DNA from: Gracilibacillus oryzae | GTDB lineage: Bacteria; Bacillota; Bacilli; Bacillales; Amphibacillaceae | DNA length: 61,583 nucleotides | Reading direction: 5' to 3' | Assembly: GCF_009498735.1 (NCBI RefSeq) | Contig: NZ_ML762442.1 | Location: 7,386 to 68,968, forward strand | In this document: positions 32,863 to 41,851 of the stretch, piece by piece | How the letters are laid out: each line of letters begins with the position of its first letter | Position numbering within the stretch: the first letter of the stretch is position 1 | Notes under the pieces: model-generated | Databases searched by the model: none | What the model was told of the DNA's origin: nothing | What the model saw: the letters and a program-made list of their open reading frames with translations, nothing else | Position numbers and translations under genes: made by a program

Positions 32863-33789
32863 TCAAACTGTCAGCCATTCTGCCAATCTTTCTTTTAATT
32901 CCGGATGAATGGGTTTAGAATGGTTTCTTTGATAGATTTTCTTTATTTCCAGTATGTTCACATCATCTTTTTCTTCTTTCAGTAAGTGATCCATGTCCTC
33001 TATTACATATGTTTTAACATCTGTGTTTACATCTTTTAAACGCTCTAGTTTCCGGTAATCTGATTGGATGTCAGCAGCTCCGGTGATTGCCAGCACAGGG
33101 CAGGAGATTTTTTTCAAGTCTGACAACAAATCATAAGCAAAATGCTCACGCGCCCATTTGGCTGGAAACGGAATACCTTGGACTCTGATCACATCTTTAT
33201 CGGTATTCTTTATTTTTGCAAAAATGCGCTGGTTTTTCTTTTCTGTTCTTTTATCAAGCTGGAAGGTGCGAAACAACCAGCCTGAAAAGTTCTTCTTCGC
33301 TTTCAGTGCTGTAAAAGCTAATTCGCGCTGCCGTGCAGAAGCTTCCTCAAATGTTTCGCCACCACCGCTTAATAAAATGATTCCATCAAGCATCTCCCTT
33401 GCAGCTACTGCTGTTGCGATCATTGTTCCTTCACTATGGCCAAGCAGCATGATTTTTGTTCCTTGGGGCATCGTGTTTCTGGTATATTGAATGGCAGCCT
33501 GCACATCATTAATAGCATCATGCAAGCCTGTTCGCAGATGGTCCCCTTCACTCTTCCCCACCCCGCGTTTGTCATATCTGAATGTAGTAAAACCCTTACT
33601 GATTAAAAAATCCGCTAATTGTTTGTAAATACTAAAGTTCATCCATTTTTGATTGGCATTTCCGTCCCGATCCACTTTACCTGATCCCGGGATAAAAAGA
33701 ATAATCGTATGTTGATCATTTTCTTCAGGTTTATTGATTGTTCCTGAAAGCATAACATCACTCTTAAACTTAATCTCCGTCATTTGCAT
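32863..33789 (-). CDS. Alpha/beta hydrolase (esterase-like)
   Basis: About 308 residues with the alpha/beta-hydrolase fold: oxyanion region IPGSGKVDRDGN, nucleophile elbow LGHSEGT, late Asp in ITGAADIQSD and His in DMDHLLKEE. It resembles serine-aminopeptidase-like/acyl esterases. It overlaps the 3' end of the upstream regulator gene by about 20 bp, so the two are translationally coupled. Three clustered ATGs make the exact start uncertain (33792, 33789 or 33783). Substrate unknown. Confidence 0.83.
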   Translation of the reverse strand: MQMTEIKFKSDVMLSGTINKPEENDQHTIILFIPGSGKVDRDGNANQKWMNFSIYKQLADFLISKGFTTFRYDKRGVGKSEGDHLRTGLHDAINDVQAAIQYTRNTMPQGTKIMLLGHSEGTMIATAVAAREMLDGIILLSGGGETFEEASARQRELAFTALKAKKNFSGWLFRTFQLDKRTEKKNQRIFAKIKNTDKDVIRVQGIPFPAKWAREHFAYDLLSDLKKISCPVLAITGAADIQSDYRKLERLKDVNTDVKTYVIEDMDHLLKEEKDDVNILEIKKIYQRNHSKPIHPELKERLAEWLTV

Positions 33790-34318
33790 CATTTCCTTTC
33801 TCCGGAATGATAATTGTCGTAAATTTTCGTTTTATCCGATCATTATCTGGCTCCAATTGCTGGTATTTTTGATATACGTTCTTTAATTCCTTTATCATCT
33901 CTAGAAACTCCTGATCAGATAAATACATATTCGCCTGTCTAAAGCTGATCCCGTCCTCCACTAAATTGATGTTTCCCTGCTCTAAATAATTACCATAATC
34001 GAGAATGGTGTTGGAGATAAACTGTGTAAATAACTCCAAATGCTCTTCCTTGGACAATTTCTCAAAATGCTCGGGACTGATACTTTCCGTGTTTGGCGCC
34101 AGGCTATAAACCCTTTCAACAGTCCCGCGCTTTTGATTTTCTTCCTGAATCACGAGCATTCCTGCTTGATAAAGATACTTGATATGCCGATAAAGAGTTG
34201 CATGAGGAGTCTTCGGCAAATATTCAGCAAGCTGGGAGGCTGTAAGATATTTGCCCCCAGCCAATGCCTGGATAATCTCAAATCTGACAGGATGCAAGAT
34301 CTTTTTCCAATTTTTCAT
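33770..34318 (-). CDS. Winged-helix transcriptional regulator (ArsR-like HTH)
   Basis: A 182-residue regulator. The DNA-binding domain is N-terminal (HPVRFEIIQALAGGKYLTASQLAEYL, LYRHIKYLYQAGML) and a helical ligand or dimer domain follows. It is encoded just upstream of, and overlapping, the hydrolase gene, which it probably controls together with itself. The ATG at 34318 follows AAAGGTG. Its promoter region borders the 52-bp tandem array to the right. Confidence 0.8.
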   Translation of the reverse strand: MKNWKKILHPVRFEIIQALAGGKYLTASQLAEYLPKTPHATLYRHIKYLYQAGMLVIQEENQKRGTVERVYSLAPNTESISPEHFEKLSKEEHLELFTQFISNTILDYGNYLEQGNINLVEDGISFRQANMYLSDQEFLEMIKELKNVYQKYQQLEPDNDRIKRKFTTIIIPEKGNDANDGD

Positions 34319-34477
34319 TCTGATCACCTTTTTTATTAGTATCTATTTTAATATTAGTATCATTTTTGATATTAATCAAGTGATTTTTTAAATTTAATAT
34401 TATTGTTATGAAATGTTAGGCGAGTGATGAATTGTTGGTGTTTGTTTTAAATGATTACTGGGGAACTCGTATATAAA

Positions 34478-35092
34478 GCGGAAATCTCACACTCTGGCTC
34501 AGGTGATTTCCCGGTTATCTTCTTATTAAGCGGAAATCTTACCCTCTGACTCAAGTGATTTCCCGGTTATCTTCTTTTTAAACGGAAATCTCACACTCTG
34601 GCTCAGGTGATTTCCTCGTTATCTTCTTATTAAGCGGAAATCTCACACTCTGGCTCAGGTGATTTCCTCGTTATCTTCTTATTAAGCGGAAATCTTACCC
34701 TCTGGCTCAAGTGATTTCCTGGTTATCTCCTTATTAAGCGGAAATCTCACCCTCTGAGTCAGGTGATTTCCTGGTTATCTTCTTATTAAGCGGAAATCTT
34801 ACCCTCTGACTCAAGTGATTTCCTGGTTATCTCCTTATTAAGCGGAAATCTCACACTCTGACTCAGGTGATTTCCTCGTTATCTTCTTATTAAGCGGAAA
34901 TCTCACCCTCAGGCTCAGGTGATTTCCTCGTTATCTTCTTATTAAGCGGAAACCTTACCCTCTGGCTCAAGTGATTTCCTGGTTATCTCCTTATTAAGCG
35001 GAAATCTCACCCTCTGAGTCAGGTGATTTCCTGGTTATCTCCTTATTAAGCGGAAATCTTCACCTTAAATCAAGTGATTTCGCGGTTATTAC
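34478..35092. repeat. Tandem array 1: twelve 52-bp units
   Basis: Units start at 34478, 34530, 34582, 34634, 34686, 34738, 34790, 34842, 34894, 34946, 34998 and 35050, with no length change; the last unit is partial and diverged. Each holds GCGGAAATC ... GATTTCC, a 7-bp inverted repeat about 18 bases apart. Two unit types exist, CTCAC..CAGGTG and CTTAC..CAAGTG. C always goes with G and T with A across the stem (12 of 12). Since 52 is not a multiple of 3 the array is not coding. It fills the 820-bp gap between the regulator and a coiled-coil gene. Confidence 0.95.
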
Positions 35093-35131
35093 AAAAAAAT
35101 GAGCAACACCATCATGGCACTGCTCATTCAA
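35092..35131 (-). terminator. Terminator after the coiled-coil gene
   Basis: AATGAGCA/TGCTCATT stem with T7 on the minus strand, just beyond the last unit of tandem array 1. Confidence 0.75.
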
Positions 35132-35139
35132 ACATTATT

Positions 35140-35433
35140 TTAAAAAAATAAATCTTCCTGTTGTGCTTTTATATTGACTACTGCCCGCTTTAATTCATGC
35201 TGGCATTCTTCGACGCGCAACTGTGCATTAAACAATGGTTCCATTGAAGTTCCGCTTCCATTAATTGCTTTGCCGCGGGCATCCTGAATCTGATCCTGCA
35301 CTTCACGCAATTGCTGCTGTAATTGTTGAATTTCTTCGATATCTGCATCGTTCCTTGCCCGGCGAGTGGCGTCCTGAAGCTGTTGGGAGAGCAAATCAAG
35401 CTGTTCAATTTCATGGCCATTTTGAATTGGCAT
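35140..35433 (-). CDS. Small coiled-coil protein, unknown
   Basis: A 97-residue glutamine- and glutamate-rich protein, nearly all heptad pattern (LDLLSQQLQDATRRA, QQLQQQLREVQDQIQ), with a short break at GKAINGSGTS. It is probably a dimeric helical hairpin. The start at 35433 follows GAAAGGAAG. No family recognised. It follows the patatin-like gene on the same strand by about 70 bp. Confidence 0.55.
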   Translation of the reverse strand: MPIQNGHEIEQLDLLSQQLQDATRRARNDADIEEIQQLQQQLREVQDQIQDARGKAINGSGTSMEPLFNAQLRVEECQHELKRAVVNIKAQQEDLFF

Positions 35434-35504
35434 AAGTGATCTTCCTTTCAAAAACATTTCTTCCTTATGTTTTGTAAAAATTCAGAAATTAAACATTAAA
35501 AATA

Positions 35505-41579: not shown

Positions 41580-41583
41580 ATTT

Positions 41584-41851
41584 GATGTTTAAAATCCCTT
41601 TATTCTTTAATTAGCCCCTTCCCTGCTCTCTTTTTGATGTTTAAACCGCTCTTATTCTTCATTCAGCACCTTCCCTGCACTCCTCTTGATGTTTAAAACA
41701 CTCTTATTCTTCATTCAGCACCTTCCCTGTACTCCTCTTGATGTTTATAACGCTCTTATTCTTCATTCAGTACCTTCCCTGTATTCCTCTTGATGTTTAT
41801 AACGCTCTTATTCTTCATTCAGTCCCTTCCCTGCACTCCTCTTGATGTTTA
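41584..41851. repeat. Tandem array 2: five 52-bp units
   Basis: Units begin with GATGTTTA at 41584, 41636, 41688, 41740 and 41792, and a sixth start at 41844 breaks off. Spacing is exactly 52 bp each time. The plus strand is pyrimidine-rich (TCTTATTCTTCATTCAGCAC, CTTCCCTG, CTCCTCTT). The unit is unrelated in sequence to array 1 yet has the same period. Unlike array 1 it has no clear hairpin. The rest of the gap (41852-42039) contains only a weak reading frame. Confidence 0.92.

Follow-up and report, generated by a model that had tools for sequence, protein, structure and literature searches.

The window considered here is a stretch of 61,583 nucleotides from the genome of Gracilibacillus oryzae, and at 34478-35092 it holds a tandem array of 52-bp units, in a gap bounded by the gene for an ArsR-type HTH regulator (33770-34327, minus strand) and an ORF of 105 aa (35140-35457, minus strand) that is without a Pfam match. 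TRF places the array at 34472-35089, with a period of 52, 11.9 copies, 90 % match and 0 % indels. Based on the sequence read-out, TRF and counts of the arms, the array comprises 11 full units of exactly 52 bp (34478..35049; the plus strand, as given, is the pyrimidine-rich one), which belong to a sequence family termed A below, and a degenerate, terminal 12th unit (35050..35092, plus strand) with a shifted inner part and with GATTTCG as its right arm. The initial annotation had counted twelve units of exactly 52 bp, which is true of the first 11, and had given every unit GGAAATC and GATTTCC arms; these form 10 exact pairs, with unit 10 reading GGAAACC and unit 12 departing as just described. 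The exact pattern GGAAATC…GATTTCC (gap of 14-20) occurs 10 times in the window, every time within the array, against a chance expectation of 0.00. Between the 105-aa ORF and the array stands a terminator-like hairpin of that ORF, with a T-run (35093..35140, minus strand; fold of -16.4 kcal/mol).

The inverted half-sites form a conserved core of 34 bp, an example of which, GATTTCC…TTAAGCGGAAATC, lies at 34504..34537 (plus strand); it recurs every 52 bp, and its arm columns are near 2 bits over 19 arrays. Next to it, at 34538..34555 (plus strand), is an example of the 18-bp spacer, which is homogenised within an array, random between arrays and fixed in length. The spacer contains the positions of a linked exchange, C/T at column 11 of the unit with G/A at column 25. 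This linkage is perfect in 11/11 full units, among which the two columns are the sole perfectly linked pair with a minor allele count above 1; in unit 12 the register is broken, and the linkage that had been claimed for all 12 units is valid there only when the motif is slid by one base. Two homogenised unit types had been offered as an alternative source of the linkage, and this fits: two unit types, spread through local duplication, account for the exchange. The freely varying loop bases were fairly described, there being 12 variable columns. The array is not covered by any ORF of at least 90 aa, in line with its description as non-coding, and its separation from CRISPR as a regular, spacer-free row also stands, since the inter-arm segments repeat one another (six kinds among 11, mean identity 85 %) and are not unique spacers between identical repeats.

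The same window carries a second 52-bp array, of sequence family C, with 5.2 copies (41582..41851, plus strand; TRF, read-out and lag scan). It is near the window's second patatin-like gene, and the first patatin gene is near the family-A array; in 17 patatin loci from 15 other species, the 1.5-kb flanks held 0 arrays.

Dozens of satellite-like, intergenic 52-bp arrays exist in the host genome, the window array among them. A DNA search of that genome returned other arrays at 66-74 % identity and with an identical period, and at an E of no more than 1 a sequence model built on the unit has 180 matches. By TRF, the window and 40 fetched host stretches, 29 of which were picked because searches had already shown arrays there, contain at least 42 intergenic period-52 arrays; four of the 42 hold a run of 100 N, so that their copy number is not readable. 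Arrays have about 2-23 units and include higher-order repeats of 104, 156 and 208 bp. By core sequence they fall into several families, of which A (TTTCC…GGAAATC, also WTTTCC…GGAAATC) has 19 arrays and B (TTTGATAGG…CCTATCAAAAC) occupies at least 16 places among the matches listed. The smaller families C, D, F and G are named from array consensuses, and E is a two-unit remnant; by eye, a remote likeness is apparent among B, C, D and F. At two loci, L176:3030-3467 (C3:252 kb) and L105:1153-1667 (C14:36 kb), family-D and family-B arrays adjoin each other.

What stays constant in these arrays is the period. Among 280 complete units from 49 arrays (42 of the host and seven of relatives), 260 are 52 bp, 18 are 51 bp and two are 53 bp, and relative to the array consensus the same units show 1695 substitutions and 24 indel events. 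Since those units were counted via a TRF period of 52, less biased support for the period comes from an autocorrelation scan over lags 20-120, in which ringing in the window and in 220 kb of host samples was confined to 51-53 and the doubles (102-105). The eleven 20-kb samples (contigs C2, C4, C6, C9 and C10) yielded four arrays at lag 52, all on C4, and no genome-wide density is therefore claimed. In the array stretches, the extra lags that rang came from N runs (scored as equal) and from two tandem repeats, of 20 and 21 bp.

Within the period, the sequence of family A has constant and free parts. The arms, which had been proposed to be conserved, are nearly invariant over the 19 family-A arrays of the host genome: pairwise identity is 99 % in arm columns, 79 % in the core and 31 % in the spacer, which stays at 18 bp. 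Family-A membership rests on similarity, and part of the arm identity is therefore built in; such membership would not alone yield random spacers of constant length. Throughout family A, inverted half-sites alternate, their halves ~20 bp apart. For the families other than A, inverted arms are partly shown, being significant in about half of those tested. Scored against shuffles, 12 chosen representatives (one consensus per presumed family) gave a combined p of 5e-5, with p <0.05 in 6/12, and over all consensuses p was <0.05 in 9/19; the test fails for families C (0.70), D (0.50) and F (0.17), for both G007 arrays (0.22 and 0.21) and for the family-A array of L047 (0.41). Helical phasing is clear in family A only: WW dinucleotides of six family-A arrays have a 10.4-bp harmonic at z 7.6 (8.7 bp, z 5.7), and the 10.4-bp harmonic is weak (z 2.0) in 18 arrays of other families.

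The genes beside the arrays offer little that is shared. The window array had been assigned to the promoter-side gap of a regulator/hydrolase operon; that gap is not special, as the other 41 arrays of the host occupy different gaps. Of the 42, 27 are in co-directional gaps, 12 in convergent and two in divergent ones, with one not assigned. Relative to a background of 112 gaps of 80 bp or more, divergent gaps are under-represented (2/41 arrays vs 22/112 gaps, p 0.025), and convergent gaps show no significant excess (p 0.11). The pyrimidine-rich strand is opposite the majority gene strand in 33/36 arrays (p 2e-7) and falls on the C-rich strand in 31/36, counts that leave out six of the 42 arrays as near-balanced (|Y-0.5| of 0.03 or less); mutational skew on free spacers could be the source of this bias. 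Flanking genes are diverse. An all-vs-all comparison of 185 ORFs, from the window and 17 array loci, found 11 pairs of related ORFs, with none of the genes recurring across several loci and with two SLH-domain proteins (L048 and L054) as the sole related pair adjoining arrays. For 40 ORFs in or close to the arrays of the same loci, Pfam likewise showed no common partner, and on these loci the idea of a shared neighbour gene was rejected.

With respect to chromosome position, dnaA was placed in four genomes. In G015, a complete genome of the same genus, 14 arrays are in the dnaA-near half, near and far stretches with arrays number 9/15 and 0/15 (p 7e-4), and the sampled arrays are confined to within 1.2 Mb of dnaA. 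G011 has four arrays, all within 1.15 Mb of dnaA (near 3/11 vs far 1/13 stretches, p 0.30), and G002 had 0 arrays in 10 stretches. Avoidance of the terminus is thus significant in G015 only, with G011 in line but not significant. In the host, on the assumption of a gene order like that of G015, an array on contig C20 lies ~2.1 Mb from the origin, and two of four sampled stretches of contig C2 map near the G015 terminus, with no A or B array on that contig among the matches listed.

Searches of related genomes for the unit, as had been recommended, gave an answer that depends on what is sought. As a sequence, the unit is nearly private to the host. Over 17 genomes of the genus, family A is strong in the host only, with one or two weak matches in each of five others, one of these, in G014, being a short stretch with a similar architecture. 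With up to two mismatches, family B has 74+68 matches in the host (backwards control, 0) and three in total in the 16 other genus genomes; with up to one mismatch it is found in the host alone of 159 genomes of the bacterial family (0/158 others). As an architecture, the array recurs: four members of the genus, G015, G011, G007 and G013, have lag 51 or 52 arrays of different sequence. In 600 kb of G015, lag 52 rang 12 times and its double, 104, nine times, followed by 42 (five) and 21 (four). Samples of G002 (200 kb), G012 and G016 (80 kb each) had no array, nor did those of three further genera in the family and two in the order, or eleven clostridial loci. Sampling covered 80-600 kb per genome (G015, 600 kb; G011, 480 kb; G002, 200 kb; others, 80 kb), which makes absence weak evidence. 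A plasmid, phage or viral origin was rejected, as neither blastn with the array nor a scan of viral contigs for one exact family-A pattern gave a match. A literature search, at the level of records, recognised no description of such arrays.

Gaps shared between species suggest how the sequences change. Between a gene for an ABC-ATPase and one for a histidine kinase, the host and G015 both have 52-bp arrays, of unlike sequence. Both neighbours of this gap are kept in eight species, including the host, and an array (self-identity of at least 65 %) is present in two of the eight; in G007 a 51-bp array lies upstream of this ABC gene, with a different gene as the far neighbour. After atpC, where three of 16 gaps were read, the host has a family-A array, G015 a two-unit lag-51 repeat (37 of 52) and G007 none. 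The G015 regions that match host loci L047 and L170 have no array, and for the other array of L185 (family F) the neighbours differ in the G015 locus L083. Being found post hoc, these cases are suggestive of an in-place turnover of array sequence in orthologous gaps. At the shared gap, the host ABC-ATPase gene (L185:1100-1995) reads as two overlapping ORFs of 141 and 158 aa; in relatives, the close matches each have one frame of 305-315 aa.

Arms that stay constant, spacers that are free in sequence but not in length and an inverted arrangement argue for recognition of the DNA by a protein and not for RNA structure, and higher-order repeats together with species-specific sequences argue for local amplification with concerted evolution. 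The reading preferred here, to which we assign a probability of roughly 40 %, is that the arrays are satellite-like rows of protein half-sites, amplified and homogenised locally, the spacing of which is held by a putative DNA-binding protein. Each 52-bp unit would consist of two inverted half-sites of a putative sequence-specific protein (WTTTCC…GGAAATC in family A), and units would multiply and homogenise through slippage or unequal recombination. The geometry may be set by a protein that acts in trans and contacts both half-sites, 52 bp amounting to 5 helical turns of 10.4 bp, and protein and sites would change together between species. The role might then be chromosome organisation, in the manner of Noc, SlmA and RacA sites or of gyrase-binding BIMEs, and not an effect on neighbouring genes. 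A general role of this kind would have to be dispensable, as the samples of G002, G012 and G016 had no array, which counts against the protein-site reading. That the period holds at 51-52 bp across changing sequence, family and species points to a physical ruler, whether a protein or an amplification enzyme of fixed geometry. Intergenic tandem repeats of bacteria are usually taken as noise or as typing markers; should a binding protein be found, the genus would become a bacterial model of concerted satellite evolution with co-evolving site and binder, and the arrays possibly a new class of chromosome-organising element. The furthest-reaching form of the idea is speculative and on balance unlikely: a chromosome-organising system of a bacterial genus, fast-evolving and origin-centred, in which the 5-helical-turn ruler is conserved and the half-sites differ by species and co-evolve with the protein that binds them, a bacterial parallel to the rapid turnover seen in eukaryotic centromere satellites.

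The alternative that survives best, and one that could quite possibly be true, is a neutral or selfish bacterial satellite, in which the 52-bp unit spreads via slippage and unequal crossing-over with no gain to the cell, its period and arms being ancestral relics or needs of amplification. The higher-order repeats of 104, 156 and 208 bp, the homogenisation inside arrays and the turnover of sequence between species speak for it, as do the want of a gene common to several array loci, the species whose samples were free of arrays and the shared gap that has no array in most of its orthologous copies. It is less at ease with arms that are nearly invariant over 19 arrays with random spacers, with a length that hardly drifts while sequence turns over and with the strand and terminus biases. 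If the amplification machinery of a selfish satellite were to read the half-sites, the outcome would be much like an array of protein sites. Eukaryotic satellite DNA has a fixed monomer length, concerted evolution, higher-order repeats and species-specific sequence, all of which the arrays share; unlike it, the host arrays are short (~2-23 units), intergenic and bacterial. Bacterial minisatellites of the VNTR/MIRU type are intergenic tandem units of ~50-100 bp, with variable copy number and a period that varies by locus. The arrays are intergenic tandem units of the same size class, likewise of variable copy number, but one period dominates the scanned DNA and recurs in other species of the genus.

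A distinctly less probable explanation is that the arrays resemble the BIME/REP elements, clusters of inverted repeats downstream of genes, which relieve supercoiling by binding gyrase or other general proteins and which are spread, now or once, by a Y1 (RAYT) transposase. PMC2817692 describes BIMEs as containing REPs that are regularly spaced and in alternating orientation. Family A has the same regular alternation in clusters, and the arrays, like the BIME/REP elements and REPINs of gammaproteobacteria, are short, inverted, clustered and intergenic and turn over as families between species; the clusters of the arrays are tandem and are few in divergent gaps. Moreover, the host's sole Y1-transposase match (C24:14556-14888) adjoins a two-unit 52-bp remnant (ACAAATC…GATTTGT, L114:699-782). 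The transposase is nonetheless disfavoured as a necessary partner. Among array-bearing genomes, the Y1 matches number one in the host, one in G015, 10 in G007, two in G013 and none in G011, so that in the last arrays occur without a match; where samples showed no array, there were eight matches in G012 (80 kb), one in G016 and none in G002. The arrays also keep their 51-52-bp period across unlike families, and their half-sites are not stem-loops themselves. The GTAG/CGTC tags of REPs, which stand next to a stem-loop of 20-40 bp, or their complements, occur in the core of 0/19 family-A consensuses; outside the core, in family A, CTAC is found in five of the 19 and CGTC in one.

Arrays of sites for Noc, the nucleoid-occlusion protein, are an improbable reading, in which family A would be built of halves of the Noc site and the avoidance of the terminus would be the Noc pattern. 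The family-A arms do resemble halves of the Noc site ATTTCCCGGGAAAT, a contiguous palindrome, and one host family-A array lies between a ATTTCCCGGGAAAT site and atpC. In the arrays, however, the halves are ~20 bp apart and the contiguous palindrome does not occur; the exact site is found elsewhere, in three copies in the host, and the other families are unlike it. The contiguous ATTTCCCGGGAAAT is, moreover, present in 17/17 genus genomes, at one to five copies, irrespective of whether arrays were found, which weakens an identity of the arrays with Noc sites. A perfect ATTTCCCGGGAAAT palindrome is present within 1.5 kb downstream of atpC in 15/16 genus genomes with an atpC match (not in G008), presumably as a conserved Noc site. 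PMC4331003 reports that the NBSs of B. subtilis are absent from the terminus, and that the sites of Noc and of E. coli SlmA are palindromic and spread over most of the chromosome except the terminus, a distribution that the arrays of G015 may share; those sites, in contrast, are single contiguous palindromes, whereas the host has tandem arrays of split half-sites and a separate canonical Noc site.

The reading advanced in the initial annotation, a transcribed hairpin or small-RNA array under selection for RNA structure, has in its favour the palindromic arms and the linked exchange of the window array, but it is the least probable of all, because the arms show no compensatory changes and the predicted fold does not pair the linked bases. 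In that RNA fold, columns 11 and 25 pair with a probability of 0.019 (C-G) or 0.009 (T-A), and column 25 alone decides stability (C/G = T/G = -7.4, C/A = T/A = -6.0 kcal/mol). The check for covariation on unit copies elsewhere, by RNAalifold and by pair counts over 19 array consensuses, was likewise unfavourable: RNAalifold on 29 units gave five pairs, 0 compensatory, and the five TTTCC/GGAAA pairs are invariant over the 19 family-A consensuses in both possible stems and, never varying, hold no information in favour of pairing. Positions adjoining these pairs are mostly unpaired (5/19, 8/19 and 9/19 pair), pairs further in hold in 15 to 19 of 19 consensuses without compensatory change, and lone compensatory cells (at most 3/19) are confined to poorly paired columns. 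Rfam 15, applied to six sources at E up to 1, matched only a T-box and, weakly, an sRNA, both outside the arrays, and in the window the terminator-like hairpin stands before the array.

Other repeats were noted in the host genome. A 159-bp direct repeat pair (CTTATAGTACGTGTTCAAAAAGTCG…, L091:376-700) lies near a family-B array, and a tandem array of 21-bp units (L059:5830-6194, 17.5 copies of AAAGTCGCAAGAAGCACCCGC) stands outside the 52-bp system.
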